Source: Actinomycetota bacterium (GTDB lineage: Bacteria > Actinomycetota > Acidimicrobiia > Acidimicrobiales > Ilumatobacteraceae). From it: 54,313 nucleotides of DNA. The translations under genes and the position numbers were made by a program. Shown piece by piece: positions 44,802 through 51,187 of this stretch (positions are counted from its first letter, which is position 1; every line of letters starts with the position of its first letter). The notes under the pieces are model-generated. The model searched no databases, had not been told where the DNA came from, and saw nothing but the letters and a program-made list of their open reading frames with translations. The DNA lies in assembly GCA_016871355.1 (NCBI GenBank), contig VFZC01000018.1, forward strand, positions 1 through 54,313, in the 5' to 3' direction.

Positions 44802-46151
44802 GTGGCGAATCGCTGGAGACGATTGATCGTCTTGCTGTTCGGCTTCCTCGCCGTCTTGGGCTGGGCGGCCACACCGGCCTCAGCCGACGGCGTTTCGCTT
44901 CGCGCACAGGTCAAAGAGCAGGCCCGTGGAGCCGGTGGTGAGACCGCCAACAAGCCCATTGCCGGAGTCGTCATCGTGGTCACCGACGAAGCGGGCAACG
45001 AGGTCGGTCGCGGTGAGACCGACGACAAGGGTGTGGTGGTCATCGAACTGCCGGGAAAGGCCAACTACACCGTCACCCTCGACGAGGACACCTTGCCGGA
45101 CGGTCAAGCTCTGACTGGCACCTCGCCCGCCACCCAAAGGCTCACGGCCGAGAGTTTCATCACGTCGACCAAGGTGGTGAACTTCTTCACCGGCGAGTCA
45201 CAGGGAGGCTCCCAGAACCTCGGCGAGAAACTGGCCCAACGTCTGGTCAATGGCATCCGGCTCGGATTGATCCTGGCCATGTGCTCGGTGGGTCTTTCGC
45301 TCATCTTCGGGACCACCGGCCTCACCAACTTCGCGCACGGCGAAATGGTGACCTTCGGAGGTCTGGCCGCCTTCATCTTCAACATCACGGGACTCACCTT
45401 CCTGGGCTTCCTCGGTTTCCTGCCCGGAGTCACCGACGACGGGAAGTTTCACATCCTCATCGCTGCGCCACTCGGCATCGCGGCCGGTGGTTTGTTCGGC
45501 TGGGCGCTCAATGCCGGAATCTTCGCTCGACTGCGTCAGCGCGGAATCGGCTTGGTCACCCAGATGGTGCTCACGGTCGGCCTGTCGATCTTGCTACGCA
45601 ACGTCTATCTGTCGCGGTTCGACAGCCGCACCAGGCCCTATGGCGACTACTCGTTGCAGAAGTCATGGAAATTCGGGCCGATTCAGATCACGCCGCGCGA
45701 CTTCACGTTGTCGGTGCTGTCGGTGGTCATCCTCGTGGCGGTCGCCCTCGCGCTGCGGTACACGCGTCTCGGTAAGGCGACGCGCGCGGTGTCCGACAAC
45801 CCCGATTTGGCTTCGTCCACTGGTATCGACTCCGAACGGGTCGTCAAGTTGGTGTGGATCCTGGGCGGAGCATTGGCGGCCACCGGCGGCGTGTTCCGCG
45901 GACTCGACGAGCAGGTCAGCTTCGACATGGGAGCGCGTCTGCTGTTCTTGATGTTCGCCGGTATCACCTTGGGTGGCCTCGGCTCCGCCTTCGGCGCCCT
46001 CGTGGGCGGTTTCGTGGTGGGTGTTCTCGTCGAAGTGGCGAGTTTGGTGGTGCCCAGCGAATTGAAGGCCGCACCAGCCCTCCTGATCTTGATCCTCGTG
46101 CTCCTGTTCCGTCCGCAGGGCATCCTCGGTAAAGCGCAGAGAGTGGGGTAG
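44802..46151 (+). CDS. livH: Branched-chain amino-acid-type ABC permease LivH with secreted N-terminal domain
   Basis: A 449-aa protein. Residues 1-28 are a signal sequence ending TPASA-DG. Residues about 30-115 form an extracytoplasmic beta-sandwich-like domain (IAGVVIVVTDEAGNEVGRGETDDKGVVVIELPGKANYTVTLDEDTLPDG) similar to carboxypeptidase-regulatory/prealbumin-like modules. Residues about 140-449 are the LivH permease, with GIRLGLILAMCSVGLSLIFGTTGLTNFAHGEM, the EAA-like RAVSDNPDLASSTGID and the ending LLFRPQGILG. Ordinary LivH is about 290-310 aa and lacks the first 130 residues. GTG 44802 has GAGGAAGAG upstream. It is the first gene of livHMGF. Confidence 0.9.
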   Translation: MANRWRRLIVLLFGFLAVLGWAATPASADGVSLRAQVKEQARGAGGETANKPIAGVVIVVTDEAGNEVGRGETDDKGVVVIELPGKANYTVTLDEDTLPDGQALTGTSPATQRLTAESFITSTKVVNFFTGESQGGSQNLGEKLAQRLVNGIRLGLILAMCSVGLSLIFGTTGLTNFAHGEMVTFGGLAAFIFNITGLTFLGFLGFLPGVTDDGKFHILIAAPLGIAAGGLFGWALNAGIFARLRQRGIGLVTQMVLTVGLSILLRNVYLSRFDSRTRPYGDYSLQKSWKFGPIQITPRDFTLSVLSVVILVAVALALRYTRLGKATRAVSDNPDLASSTGIDSERVVKLVWILGGALAATGGVFRGLDEQVSFDMGARLLFLMFAGITLGGLGSAFGALVGGFVVGVLVEVASLVVPSELKAAPALLILILVLLFRPQGILGKAQRVG

Positions 46152-46153
46152 CG

Positions 46154-47164
46154 ATGGATTGGTCGCTCATCTTCGAGAACACCCTCAAAGGCTTCATTGG
46201 CATCAACGCGGTGTACTTCGCGCTCGCTGCTCTCGGTCTCAACGTTCAGTTTGGTTACACCGGGCTTCTCAACTTCGGCCAGGCCGGCTTCATGGCCTGC
46301 GGTGCCTATGGCCTCGGTATGACGGCTCAGTACTTCGAGATCTCCATGTGGTGGGGCATCCCTCTCGGCATCCTGTTCTCGGTCGGGCTCGGTCTGCTGA
46401 TGGGTGTTCCGACACTGCGATTGCGTGCCGATTATCTCGCGATCGTCACGATCGCCGCGGCCGAGATCATCCGCTTGGTCGTGCGATCGGTCCGCTTCAA
46501 GCACTACTTCGGTGGTAGTGACGGCATCAACAACTTCTCGCGGACGTTTCGCGATCTGGGCAACAAAGTCGGTATCGACGAGGCCTCGAGATATGGTTTC
46601 TCGCCTTTCCGGTTCACCGGCCGTGAACTCTGGACTCTCATCGTCGGTTGGATTCTGGTCGCGCTCCTCGGCTTCTTCGTCTACACGTTGATGAAGAGTC
46701 CGTGGGGACGAGTGCTCAAGGCCATTCGCGAGGACGAAGACGCGGTTCGATCGCTCGGCAAGAACGTGTACTCGTACAAGATGCAGTCGCTGATCCTGGG
46801 CGGCATCCTCGGAACGATCTCCGGCATGATCTTCGCTCTCGACCGGGCAGCCGTGCAGCCCGACAACTACAGCCGCGACGTCACGTTCTACATCCTCACT
46901 GCTCTGGTGCTCGGTGGAGTCGCCCGGGTATCCGGTTCGATCATCGGTCCGATGATCTTCTGGGGAATCTTCACCTTCCTCGACAACTTCATGCGCCAGG
47001 TGGCCGACGACCCGATCCGCATCGGCAACTTCCAGGTAATGGACTCGACCGATGTCGGTCCGCTCAACTTCATCCTCATCGGTCTGACCCTCATCTTGCT
47101 GATGGTGTTCCGGCCTCAGGGTGTGTTTGGTGATCGCAAGGAGATGGCGTTCGATGGCCGCTGA
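46154..47164 (+). CDS. livM: Branched-chain amino-acid-type ABC permease LivM
   Basis: A 336-aa inner-membrane permease. AALGLNVQFGYTGLLNFGQAGFMACGAYG is the family signature. GVPTLRLRADYLAIVTIAAAEIIRLV and KAIREDEDAVRSLGKNVYSYK (the ATPase-coupling loop) follow. It pairs with LivH to form the channel for a branched-chain amino acid, amide or urea-like solute. It begins 2 bases after the livH stop and overlaps livG by 11 bases. Confidence 0.94.
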   Translation: MDWSLIFENTLKGFIGINAVYFALAALGLNVQFGYTGLLNFGQAGFMACGAYGLGMTAQYFEISMWWGIPLGILFSVGLGLLMGVPTLRLRADYLAIVTIAAAEIIRLVVRSVRFKHYFGGSDGINNFSRTFRDLGNKVGIDEASRYGFSPFRFTGRELWTLIVGWILVALLGFFVYTLMKSPWGRVLKAIREDEDAVRSLGKNVYSYKMQSLILGGILGTISGMIFALDRAAVQPDNYSRDVTFYILTALVLGGVARVSGSIIGPMIFWGIFTFLDNFMRQVADDPIRIGNFQVMDSTDVGPLNFILIGLTLILLMVFRPQGVFGDRKEMAFDGR

Positions 47165-48029
47165 GCGTTCGTATTCACCCTTGGCGCAGGCCGCCCGTTC
47201 GGCCCTGGCGGGTTGCGAGAAGGTGCCCGGATCGCGCAAACCCGATCCGATCCTGGTCGCTGATGGTGTTCGTCGTGAGTTCGGTGGCATCGTCGCCGTG
47301 GACGTCGATCACATCGATGTGCAGCGCGGCTCGATCACGGCACTGATCGGACCCAACGGAGCCGGCAAGACCACGCTGTTCAACCTTCTCTCCGGCTTCG
47401 ACACTCCATCGACCGGTCAATGGTCGTTCGACGGACGAGACATGGCCAAGGTCGCACCGCACAAGACCGCCGCGCTGGGCATGGTGCGCACGTTCCAGCT
47501 CACCAAGAGCCTCACGAAGTTGTCGGTGATCGAGAACATGCGTCTCGGTGCCACCGGACAGCGGGGCGAGAAGTGGTGGAACGGCTTGTTCGCGAGCACC
47601 TGGAAGAAACAGGAGGCCGAGATCACCTCTCGGGCCGAGGGGCTGCTCGATCGCTTCACGTTGTCGCACATGCGTGACGAGTTCGCTGGCGCCCTGTCGG
47701 GTGGGCAACGCAAGTTGCTCGAGATGGCTCGTGCGCTCATGACCAACCCCAACTTGGTGATGCTCGACGAACCGATGGCGGGAGTCAACCCGGCCCTCAA
47801 GCAAAGCCTCAACGACCACATCCGCGGCCTCCGCGATGAAGGCATGACCGTGCTCTTCGTCGAACACGACATGGACATGGTTCACGACGTATCCGACTGG
47901 GTGATCGTGATGGCCGAGGGGCGAGTCATCGCCGAAGGGACACCCGACGACATCTCGAAGAATCCGGCCGTGATCGACGCCTACCTCGGCGCGCACCAGG
48001 GTCGTTCACTCCTGGAGGAGGACGCATGA
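47154..48029 (+). CDS. livG: ABC transporter ATPase LivG
   Basis: A 291-aa cytoplasmic ATPase. Walker A is GPNGAGKTT, the signature is LSGGQRKLLEMARALM, Walker B is VMLDEPMAGVNP, and the H-loop is FVEHDMDMV, which is the LivG-type order. A roughly 30-residue N-terminal extension (AERSYSPLAQAARSALAGCEKVPG) precedes the usual start of the domain. ATG 47154 lies inside the livM 3' end, and the stop overlaps livF as ATGA. Confidence 0.94.
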   Translation: MAAERSYSPLAQAARSALAGCEKVPGSRKPDPILVADGVRREFGGIVAVDVDHIDVQRGSITALIGPNGAGKTTLFNLLSGFDTPSTGQWSFDGRDMAKVAPHKTAALGMVRTFQLTKSLTKLSVIENMRLGATGQRGEKWWNGLFASTWKKQEAEITSRAEGLLDRFTLSHMRDEFAGALSGGQRKLLEMARALMTNPNLVMLDEPMAGVNPALKQSLNDHIRGLRDEGMTVLFVEHDMDMVHDVSDWVIVMAEGRVIAEGTPDDISKNPAVIDAYLGAHQGRSLLEEDA

Positions 48030-48757
48030 GCAAGGTTCTCCACGCCACCGACCTCGTCGCCGGGTACATCCCCGAGGTCAACATCCTCAATGGTTGCAAT
48101 CTGGAGGTGTCGAGCGGCGAGTTCGTGGGCATCATCGGCCCGAACGGCGCCGGCAAGTCGACCTTCCTGAAAGCAGTGCTCGGGCAGTGCAAGGTGCGTT
48201 CGGGTCAGATCTTCTTGAACGAACATGAGATCACCGGACGTAAGGCTCACGAACTCGTCGCCATGGGTGTGGGCTACGTTCCGCAGACCAAGAACGTGTT
48301 TCCGAGTCTCACGGTTCGTGAAAACCTCGAGATGGGTTGCTTCCTGAAGCCTTCGGTGTTCACCGAACGTTTCGATTACGTGGTCGACATGTTCCCGCGA
48401 CTGGGTGAGCGGGCGGCTCTGCGAGCCGGCTCGTTGTCTGGTGGCGAGCGTCAGATGGTGGCGATGGGTCGCGCTCTCATGATGAAGCCGGCGATCCTGC
48501 TTCTCGACGAACCGTCGGCCGGGTTGTCACCACAGCTCCAGGACGAAGTGTTCGTCAACTGCCGGACCATCAATCAGTCGGGAGTGGCGATCTTGATGGT
48601 CGAACAGAACGCTCGCCGTTGCCTCCAGGTGGTGCACCGCGGCTACGTACTCGATCAGGGTCGTAACGCCTACACCGGTTCGGGCCGCGATCTGCTGAGC
48701 GATTCGAACGTGATCGAGTTGTATCTCGGCACGCTCGCCCGCTCGACCGGCGGCTGA
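48026..48757 (+). CDS. livF: ABC transporter ATPase LivF
   Basis: A 243-aa ATPase partner of LivG. Walker A is GPNGAGKST, the family-typical GVGYVPQTKNVFPSLTVRENLEMG follows, the signature is LSGGERQMVAMGRALM, and Walker B is ILLLDEPSAGLSP. Together LivG and LivF power uptake through LivHM. It is the last gene of the operon and is followed 13 bases later by a triplicated terminator repeat. Confidence 0.95.
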   Translation: MSKVLHATDLVAGYIPEVNILNGCNLEVSSGEFVGIIGPNGAGKSTFLKAVLGQCKVRSGQIFLNEHEITGRKAHELVAMGVGYVPQTKNVFPSLTVRENLEMGCFLKPSVFTERFDYVVDMFPRLGERAALRAGSLSGGERQMVAMGRALMMKPAILLLDEPSAGLSPQLQDEVFVNCRTINQSGVAILMVEQNARRCLQVVHRGYVLDQGRNAYTGSGRDLLSDSNVIELYLGTLARSTGG

Positions 48758-48770
48758 GCCGTTATCACGT

Positions 48771-48868
48771 CCCCCGGTTTCCCGGGGGAGTCTGAGAATG
48801 AGAAAGGCCCCCCGGTTTCCCGGGGGAGTCTGAGAATGAGAAAGGCCCCCCGGTTTCCCGGGGGGCCT
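48771..48868. repeat. 38-bp tandem repeat of a terminator hairpin (about 2.6 copies)
   Basis: A 38-bp unit starting CCCCCGGTTTCCCGGGGG and continuing AGTCTGAGAATGAGAAAGG is repeated with period 38; the GGTTT core begins at 48776, 48814 and 48852. Each copy carries a GC-rich hairpin with loop TTTC. Only the last copy has the full 13-bp stem. The array lies between livF and the convergent livK gene. Confidence 0.85.
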
Positions 48869-48898: not shown

Positions 48899-50275
48899 TC
48901 ACTTTCCGGCGTCGAAGTTCTCGCCGAGTGCGTTACCCATGTTGCCGTCGGTGCCGTACCAGTTCTTCACCTTCGGACCGATTCCGCTCTCGACAGCAAC
49001 GCGCAGGATGCGGCTGCCTTCGTCGAACGAGATCAGAACGACTGCGTCCGGATCGGCGGCGACCACGTCGGCCACTTCAGCGTCGAACGACGCAGCAGCC
49101 GGGTCGTAGGCCTTGACTCCCTTGACTTCGACACCTGCGGCCTCGAGCACGTTCTTCACGACAGCGGCGATGCCGTTGCCGTACGCGTCGTCGAGGTTGA
49201 GGATGTAGGCCGAAGCGTTGCCGTCTTCCACGATCTGGTTGGCCACCACGGCGCCCTGCAGACCGTCCGCCGGAGCGTTACGGAAGTACAGGTTGTCGTC
49301 GGGGTAGTCGCTCAGCTTGGGGCTCGTGTTGGCCGGGCTGAACATGGTGATACCAGCAGCGGTGATCTTGTCGATGACCGTGAGGGTCACGCCAGACGAA
49401 GCGGCGCCAACGATGGCGTCCACGTTCTCGCTGATGAGACGATCGGCGGTCTGCGACGCGATGTCGGTGGAGGTGTCGCCAGAGTCGCCCTGCGAGTACA
49501 GGACTTCCTGGCCGAGAACGCCACCCGCGGCGTTGATTTCGCTGATGGCGTACTCGAGGCCGGCGTACTCCGGTGCACCGAGGAAGGCAAGGTTGCCGGT
49601 TTCGGGCAGGAGCGAACCGATCTTCAGCTGGCCGTCACCCTCACGGGTGGCGGTGGTGGTGCCGAGAGCGACGATTGCCGAATCGGGAGCCTCTGCCTGG
49701 ATCAGGTTGTCGTTCGACTCTTCGGTGATGCGGTTGTCAGCACCGAACTCGAGCATGGCGTACGAACCCTGGAGGGGCTCGCCGTTGCCGTTGAACTCGT
49801 GCGGGCCGGAGATTCCGTCATAGTCGGGGTCTCCGCCAGCGGCGATGATGGCCTTGCAGTCGGCGAAGGTGGTGCACTTCTCGCCGTCCTTGGTGATGCC
49901 GACGATCTCGTCAGCATGCTTGGCGCCATCGGTGCCAGCCTTCTCGACCGCCAGAGCGATCACGACGGCAGCGTCGAACGCCTCACCGGCGTAGTTGAAG
50001 TCCTCGAGAGCAGCGTTGCCCTTCGAGACCCAGAAGTCCGAAACCTTCTGGAGCCACTCGTCGCTGACTTCAGCACCCTTGGGCGTGGTGCCCTTCATGC
50101 CCTCGAGCTCGCCACCAGCGGCCGGAGCCTCGGTTGCGGGTGCCTCGGTGGCAGGTGCTTCAGTAGCCGGAGCGGCGGTGGTGTCTGCACTCTCGTCGTC
50201 GCCACCGCAGGCTGCGCCTACGAGTGCGAGACCAAGAATGAGAGCCCCAACGCGGCGTGCGCGGGTCTTCTGCAT
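48899..50275 (-). CDS. livK: Branched-chain amino-acid-type substrate-binding lipoprotein, apparently circularly permuted
   Basis: A 458-aa exported solute-binding protein (Peripla_BP_6, type I fold) for the livHMGF transporter. The lipoprotein signal ends VGAAC (lipid Cys23) and is followed by an Asp/Glu- and PATEA-repeat linker (24-54). The domain order is unusual. Residues about 57-195 (LEGMKGTTPKGAE, NYAGEAFDAAVVIALA, KCTTFADCKAI, YDGISGPHEFNGNGEP) are what normally ends the family. Residues about 214-458 (LKIGSLLPETGNLAFLGAPE, SEINAAGGVLGQ, VGAASSGVT, FSPANTSPKL) normally begin it, and the chain stops at GTDGNMGNALGENFDAGK. Joining that end to LEGMKG restores the ordinary order. GGGGGAG precedes ATG 50275. 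Confidence 0.9.
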   Translation of the reverse strand: MQKTRARRVGALILGLALVGAACGGDDESADTTAAPATEAPATEAPATEAPAAGGELEGMKGTTPKGAEVSDEWLQKVSDFWVSKGNAALEDFNYAGEAFDAAVVIALAVEKAGTDGAKHADEIVGITKDGEKCTTFADCKAIIAAGGDPDYDGISGPHEFNGNGEPLQGSYAMLEFGADNRITEESNDNLIQAEAPDSAIVALGTTTATREGDGQLKIGSLLPETGNLAFLGAPEYAGLEYAISEINAAGGVLGQEVLYSQGDSGDTSTDIASQTADRLISENVDAIVGAASSGVTLTVIDKITAAGITMFSPANTSPKLSDYPDDNLYFRNAPADGLQGAVVANQIVEDGNASAYILNLDDAYGNGIAAVVKNVLEAAGVEVKGVKAYDPAAASFDAEVADVVAADPDAVVLISFDEGSRILRVAVESGIGPKVKNWYGTDGNMGNALGENFDAGK

Positions 50276-50389: not shown

Positions 50390-51187
50390 ATGAGCGAAGT
50401 CCTGTACAAGGTCAACGACCACGTGGCGACCATCACCCTCAATGCTCCGGAGCGGCTCAACACCATTTCCGGGGGGATGCTGAACGACCTGTCCGATGCC
50501 CTCCTGCAGGGCGATCGTGACCGTGACGTGCGCTGCATCGTCCTGACCGGAGCCGGCAAGGCCTTCTGCGCGGGCCTCGATCTGGCGGCCCAGATGGGTC
50601 AGAAAAAGGCTCTCGGGGTCCTCGACAGCGGGGGAGACATGGGCAGTGAGTTCGACCTCCGGACCGCCCCGCCGGTCGTTCTCCACAACCTCGACACCCC
50701 GACCATCTGCGCTTTGAACGGAGGCGCGGCCGGCTACGGACTCGATCTGGCCTTCGGCTGCGACATCCGGATCGCCGCGTCGACCGCGAAGCTGAATCCT
50801 GGTTTCGCCAAGCGCGGAATACTTCCCGAGAGCGGTGGTACCTGGCTGTTGCCGCGCATCGTCGGCTACGCCAAGGCCGCGGAGATCTGTTTCACCGGTC
50901 GAACGTTGTCGGCGGCCGAGGGTCTCGACCTCGGGCTGGTGAATCACGTGGTCGAACCCGATCAACTGCACGACCGCGTTGCGGAACTCGCCGGAGAAAT
51001 CGCAGCCAACGCTCCACTCGCCGTGCGGGCCATCAAGCGCATGATGCGCGCGGCCGAGACCGAGACGTTCGAGCAGAACATCCACCACGTGTTCTTGCAA
51101 CTGCTTCCGCTTTTCCGAACGAACGACTTCAAAGAGGGAGTCGCCTCGTTCATGGAGAAGCGACCCGCCAACTTCACCGGTCGCTGA
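50390..51187 (+). CDS. Enoyl-CoA hydratase/isomerase family protein
   Basis: A 265-aa crotonase-fold enzyme acting on acyl-CoA. The oxyanion-hole segments are AFCAGLDLAAQ and ALNGGAAGYGLDLAFGCDIRIA. A Glu is retained in the active-site helix region GILPESGGTWLLPR. The ending KEGVASFMEKRPANFTGR is typical. It could hydrate enoyl-CoA or isomerise a double bond. The start is set by the leaderless promoter. The nitroreductase follows after 11 bases. Confidence 0.93.
   Translation: MSEVLYKVNDHVATITLNAPERLNTISGGMLNDLSDALLQGDRDRDVRCIVLTGAGKAFCAGLDLAAQMGQKKALGVLDSGGDMGSEFDLRTAPPVVLHNLDTPTICALNGGAAGYGLDLAFGCDIRIAASTAKLNPGFAKRGILPESGGTWLLPRIVGYAKAAEICFTGRTLSAAEGLDLGLVNHVVEPDQLHDRVAELAGEIAANAPLAVRAIKRMMRAAETETFEQNIHHVFLQLLPLFRTNDFKEGVASFMEKRPANFTGR

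Follow-up and report, generated by a model that had tools for sequence, protein, structure and literature searches.

The window, by which the whole stretch of 54,313 nucleotides that was analysed is meant, comes from a freshwater actinobacterium. It contains a liv-type locus, at which the gene for a nutrient-catching surface protein is placed tail to tail with the genes of an ABC importer. The first of these importer genes encodes a LivH-type permease (44802–46151, + strand, BPD_transp_2), with an extra amino-terminal secreted domain resembling CarboxypepD_reg, for which the CarboxypepD_reg and bMG3 matches are weak and below their cut-offs. It is followed by a LivM-type permease (46154–47164, +, BPD_transp_2), a LivG-type ATPase (47121–48029, +, as the open reading frame is listed, the true start being probably further in; ABC_tran and BCA_ABC_TP_C) and a LivF-type ATPase (48026–48757, +, ABC_tran). 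Permease and ATPase genes are adjacent, as in importers of the LivHMGF type. When loci were compared by eye, a similar extension upstream of LivH was visible at all 20 liv loci having LivH, permuted and normal alike, with that of L163 shortened; three other loci compared for it are without LivH.

Convergent with the LivF gene is the substrate-binding protein gene (48899–50275, − strand), of which the frame is intact, as the earlier note on this DNA had it: 458 amino acids plus a stop codon. The gap between the two is occupied by a probable terminator array (48771–48864), in which a GC-rich hairpin unit of 38 bp, able to fold from either strand, is present in 2.5 copies. The copies are perfect, and the array is likely a two-way terminator. 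On its other side, the substrate-binding protein gene is divergent from an enoyl-CoA hydratase/isomerase gene (50390–51187, +, ECH_1, E-value 1.1e-54).

Block order of the lipoprotein

The protein starts with a lipoprotein-type signal peptide (residues 1–23; 50207–50275, −), recognised from sequence and alignment, the Cys23 of which is invariant in the 16 of 16 permuted proteins aligned. A low-complexity tether of PATEA repeats follows (residues 24–56; 50108–50206, −). In a permuted protein from the same genus (L040, RHCK01000027.1, 5001–6479), an extra stretch in the tether repeats, with a cysteine in it, interrupts the PSTEA pattern. The next segment, the C block (residues 57–195; 49691–50107, −), is a homologue of the final third in normal-order relatives (positions 243–371 of 377 in the family profile described below). 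A fusion linker (residues 196–213; 49637–49690, −), placed by sequence and linker comparison, leads from the old carboxy-terminus to the old amino-terminus, and the chain ends with the N block (residues 214–458; 48902–49636, −), which is homologous to the fold's first two thirds (positions 2–237 of Peripla_BP_6 and 1–241 of the family profile). The linker counts 18 residues with the boundaries of the earlier note, the length given there, and 27 with the profile boundaries.

Searched in its native order against Pfam, the window protein matches Peripla_BP_6 with residues 217–452 (profile positions 2–237 of 343; 122.5 bits, with a curated cut-off of 31.7), and residues 57–195 have no Pfam binding-protein match. 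When the halves are restored to their usual order, the Peripla_BP_6 match is extended to positions 2–305 and 132 bits, while that to ANF_receptor grows from positions 6–216 to 6–350 of 353 and from 83.9 to 91.1 bits. A family profile of 377 positions was built from 43 normal-order relatives, and proteins were scored on it in their native block order, because rotated sequences still carrying signal and tether misaligned in many rows. The window protein aligns first to positions 243–371 (126 bits) and then to 1–241 (339 bits). These are the end and start segments of the fold, complementary and in reversed order, as in a circular permutation; the same was found in 31 of the 31 permuted proteins scored. 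The swap of the two halves claimed in the earlier note is thus confirmed by the family profile, and the match in the usual linear order of the Peripla_BP_6/LivK fold, which that note had named as evidence to the contrary, was not obtained. As the two blocks are complementary, the fold is complete or nearly so, and only the order is altered. The window protein retains 58 of the 64 columns that are at least 95% conserved among 52 normal-order relatives, and dN/dS is 0.07–0.14 when it is compared with five relatives, so the permuted gene is under purifying selection. Profile alignment, conservation and the structure model presented below support the window protein as a natural circular permutation.

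The window genome is fragmented (59 contigs, 85.83% complete), a state in which a misassembled gene or a decaying pseudogene might be suspected. Either is exceedingly improbable: the reversed order recurs with intact frames in many independent assemblies, namely those of 16 other genomes of the genus, of two Blastococcus genomes and of genomes on megabase contigs, which excludes misassembly, and the dN/dS values are those of a gene being maintained. An assembly artefact and a pseudogene were both ruled out on these grounds, and the search in related genomes that the earlier note had called for came out in favour of the swapped order.

Predicted fold and cut sites

A first AlphaFold2 model, made with a shallow alignment of 16 rows, was poor (pLDDT 55). 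With 53 rows, the model of the permuted chain reached a mean pLDDT of 89.2 and a pTM of 0.85, with a bias to the usual fold, since normal-order relatives were supplied as two fragments each. According to this model, the permuted chain is predicted to fold into one compact unit, with a first strand formed by residues 61–65 (KGTTP) and a terminal helix formed by residues 448–456. When the model was submitted to Foldseek, proteins of the LivJ/LBP type were returned first, including 4n0q, 4gnr, 1usg and 1z15. Most of the top 50 align over about 230–260 columns, less than a full superposition, which is what is expected when a permuted protein is aligned by a sequential aligner. For the two-lobed type I fold, which the model predicts, the sequential alignment extends over about 245 columns. 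The location of the new termini at an inter-lobe crossing, as put forward in the earlier note, would fit the modelled secondary structure, in which the first strand begins at residue 61. According to the same note, ligand closure or coupling to the permease may be altered.

Two cut sites are present in the family, about 20 profile positions apart. Type A proteins, comprising the window protein, its Acidimicrobiia relatives and group A2, end after a YGTDGNMGNALGENFDAGK-like sequence and start near GMKGTTP. In the window protein, the chain is now open behind the GTDGNMGNALGENF segment, immediately before the strand starting with GMKGTTP; the earlier note's statement that the chain stops exactly where LEGMKG would go on holds to within about one residue. 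Type B proteins (groups B1 to B4, of which B1 is the Blastococcus family) start directly before a YGTDGN-like strand and have GIGP or its counterpart at their end. In terms of the family profile, the last N-block position is 241 in type A and 218–222 in type B, one row being cut by a contig end. The linkers are 21–47 residues long, similar within a group and different between groups. Going by the hinge positions of LivJ and the alignment, the new termini would lie at the hinge in type A and inside the second lobe in type B.

Distribution and number of origins

A first search covered 41 genomes, from the window's own genome outwards to its genus, family and order. Of the 24 genomes of the same genus, 17, among them that of the window, have full or nearly full colinear matches, and the order was confirmed in the frames of all 17. 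Three further genomes of the genus (G006, G010 and G011) hold pieces of the permuted gene, and among the matches listed for the remaining four there are only distant paralogs or short pieces. Four records (L041, L042, L053 and L054) are titled Bifidobacterium breve, yet their matches are 85–88% identical to the window's, and the titles look wrong. The permuted order is shared by two Blastococcus genomes, one of them B. xanthinilyticus DSM 46842. In the family around B. xanthinilyticus (Geodermatophilaceae at NCBI), 95 of 112 genomes matched, 92 with a colinear copy that is full or nearly so and three with partial matches only; three of the 92 also have a match to the N block only. Block order was verified in the frames at 30 Geodermatophilaceae loci.

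Wider draws gave smaller shares. A class draw contained 10 permuted genomes among 394 (120 matched, Blastococcus itself counted), and the draw from the window's class 12 among 296 (51 matched), four of which belong to the window's genus. Seven new permuted genomes, one of them with its gene truncated by a contig end, were found among 148 in a draw from one order, and two among 396 (45 matched) in the phylum draw, besides G1126, which is apparently the same as G247. Most other relatives listed in the draws match the N block of the query only, and relatives classified from DNA as not permuted are of normal order or partial. A collection of plasmids yielded five matching records: the best two, from Nonomuraea and Arthrobacter, are of normal order, and the other three match about half of the query. 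The relative on the plasmid of Arthrobacter sp. StoSoilB13 (L219), of normal order, is spread across two reading frames and is perhaps frameshifted.

Trees were built from re-ordered sequences, and AU tests were performed on the whole protein and on each half. Near-copies, distant paralogs and long branches were left out. This removed 22 locus prefixes from one tree and 29 from the 64-row whole-protein and half tests, including the permuted L142, L107 and L108. In the enlarged set, 27 normal loci and the context loci were left out and only 28 chosen permuted rows included; six more prefixes were left out of the 80-row trees and seventeen of the 69-row half-trees. The sets of all permuted, all type A and all type B proteins were defined by their cut sites. 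Groups B1 to B4 were named only after a first tree had been viewed, which weakens the tests on them relative to those on the cut types.

Placing all permuted proteins in a single clade costs 147 log-likelihood units with 64 rows (p-AU 1.2e-4); the p-values are 5.8e-5 for the N half, 1e-4 for the C half and 1.1e-60 with 80 rows. A single origin of all permuted proteins was thus rejected by the AU tests, on the whole protein and on each half. A single clade of all type B proteins is rejected as well, by the whole protein with 64 rows (7.5e-5) and with 80 rows, and by both halves in the 64-row set and in the 69-row half-trees, which also reject B1 with B3. The two type A groups, A and A2, are rejected as a clade by the whole protein (3.7e-4, 80 rows) and the N half (0.0317, 69 rows), while the C half gives no rejection (0.222, 69 rows). 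Other pairs are less clear-cut. For A with B1, p is 0.0034 with 64 rows, 0.027 for the N half, 0.384 for the C half and 0.214 with 80 rows; for B3 with B4 it is 0.0474 with 64 rows, a marginal value, and 0.0571 with 80 rows, which is no rejection; B1 with B2 is not rejected either (0.238, 80 rows). The 80-row tree, with more lineages, requires six label changes, five of which are forced by well-supported branches.

As far as sequence trees can tell, the permuted proteins are shown to be polyphyletic. We infer at least three independent permutations in Actinomycetota (one for A, B1 and B2, one for A2, and one for B3 and B4), and possibly as many as six, the number suggested by the best tree. 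The count is uncertain, because A and B1, B1 and B2, and B3 and B4 are poorly separated and A with A2 is not rejected by the C half.

Proposed route to the permutation, probable function and known systems

The convergent arrangement seen in the window is the rule. The substrate-binding protein gene is tail to tail with the liv genes at 15 of 20 permuted loci, the window counted, and at all 8 normal-order loci examined. The exceptions among the permuted loci are three without liv genes in the stretch and two A2 loci, in which the gene is divergent from livH. Tandem copies of the substrate-binding protein gene at the liv locus occur in two normal-order genomes. In addition, a replicon of Nonomuraea gerenzanensis (L218, NZ_LT559118.1) has three normal-order frames in a row within 4.2 kb, of which two are truncated where the stretch ends. 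Such copies fit permutation by duplication, for which they are the starting material (PMC3320104). In genome G937 (L193, 1056–3989), a type B permuted gene is directly followed by a normal-order gene and then by a convergent liv operon. The permuted copy is nearest to group B3 and the normal copy to other normals, so this pair is a standing mixture rather than a fresh product. In the loci examined, the stop-to-stop frames of 150 codons or more included no fused double gene or partial duplicate that could be an intermediate: 107 frames were reversed, 110 normal or partial and none odd (the loci overlap, and these are not genome counts).

The main rival to repeated permutation is a single event, followed by horizontal spread and by gene conversion with neighbouring normal copies, which would have scattered the permuted proteins over the trees. 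The same type B cut in separate clades, with N blocks ending at 218–222, could have come about in this way, conversion is possible where permuted and normal copies adjoin, as in G937, and some pairs of groups are inseparable in the AU tests. We nevertheless regard it as unlikely, because each half separately rejects one permuted clade and one type B clade, the linkers differ between groups and have no normal counterpart that could convert them, the A and B cuts are separated by some 20 profile positions, and at both A2 loci the gene is divergent from the liv genes instead of convergent. Fission of the gene in two, with later fusion of the pieces in opposite order, is very unlikely. It is one of the two main models of circular permutation (PMC3320104), but the single-block pieces found in loci of the genus sit where locus and contig end together, and the copies seen in tandem are whole.

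In all likelihood, the window gene encodes a membrane-anchored, circularly permuted binding protein of the LivK/HAAT family (type I periplasmic-binding proteins), which would feed LivHMGF and the permutation of which would have arisen repeatedly by tandem duplication. The route would start with a gene duplicated in tandem at the liv locus. An in-frame fusion of the C block of the first copy with the N block of the second would come next, joining the old carboxy-terminus to the old amino-terminus through a linker of about 20–27 residues, and finally the N block of the first copy and the C block of the second would be lost, with the signal peptide retained. The product would close on its ligand as usual and feed the convergent LivHMGF transporter. 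Judging from family and neighbours, this ligand is most likely small and probably amino-acid-like, bound between the two lobes and passed to LivHMGF. The lipid tether, formerly at the first strand, would now be attached near the hinge in type A and at a strand deeper in what used to be mid-chain in type B. The permutation probably moves the membrane tie in such a way that the tether would pull on the hinge region or on the second lobe. A bolder reading, less probable than not, is that one ortholog has undergone up to six independent permutations, all of them opening the chain in the same stretch of about 20 residues, through recurrent tandem duplication and through selection for taking the tether away from lobe I, where it sat on the first strand, to the hinge or lobe II; this would alter access to the permease, in which LivH has the extra, probably outward-facing domain.

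Compared with LivJ and LivK (LIV-BP and LBP, Peripla_BP_6), the window protein is homologous in both blocks and has like livHMGF neighbours, but differs in its reversed block order, new termini and additional linker. Normal-order relatives from Actinomycetota (for instance L028, L143 and L119) are about 53–62% identical in the N block, have the usual order and lie at the same convergent liv locus. In the literature searched, which takes in only a minority of subscription papers, there was no report of a permuted LivK/Peripla_BP_6 protein, and the only natural permuted binding protein was TpMglB-2 (Tp0684) of Treponema. PMC4990184 describes it as a circularly permuted glucose-binding protein and names the class 'Type Ic'. 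Of the other papers, PMC9815098 concerns engineered halves, and in passages of PMC12667903 and PMC11757225 neither periplasmic nor ABC binding proteins came up under the terms searched.

According to PMC4990184, TpMglB-2 is a type I binding protein that serves an ABC importer, is permuted by nature, is anchored by lipid and has two lobes, and the authors also raise a link to membrane tethering; the window protein is like it in these traits, its two-lobed fold being predicted. By sequence, the window protein is a permuted member of the type I superfamily, as 'Type Ic' implies, with the fold taken from the model. The TpMglB-2 cut and homology to MglB are absent: the window protein is cut at position 241 of 377, and its best Pfam match is Peripla_BP_6. 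TpMglB-2 belongs to the MglB family; in it, the three strands that open the N-lobe have gone to the carboxy-terminus, which creates a fourth crossover (PMC4990184), and its permuted origin is less clear, since identity to E. coli MglB is just 13% in the relocated part. The window family, in contrast, belongs to LivK, has two other cuts, is plainly homologous to normal proteins in both blocks and apparently has several origins.

What appears to be new is the occurrence in the LivK family, the two cut sites, the scale and the apparent recurrence; the wide spread, the second cut site and the recurrence go beyond what the earlier note foresaw. A standard transporter part seems to have been rewired repeatedly in nature, apparently still working, and the permuted proteins are natural scaffolds for biosensor work. 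With permuted and normal orthologs at one conserved locus, two cuts, several apparent origins and one genome with tandem permuted and normal copies, both the route (duplication, fusion and trimming) and the benefit can be tested directly in bacteria that can be cultured, Blastococcus for example. For annotation pipelines the family is a warning, as Pfam and NCBIfam models matched one block only.
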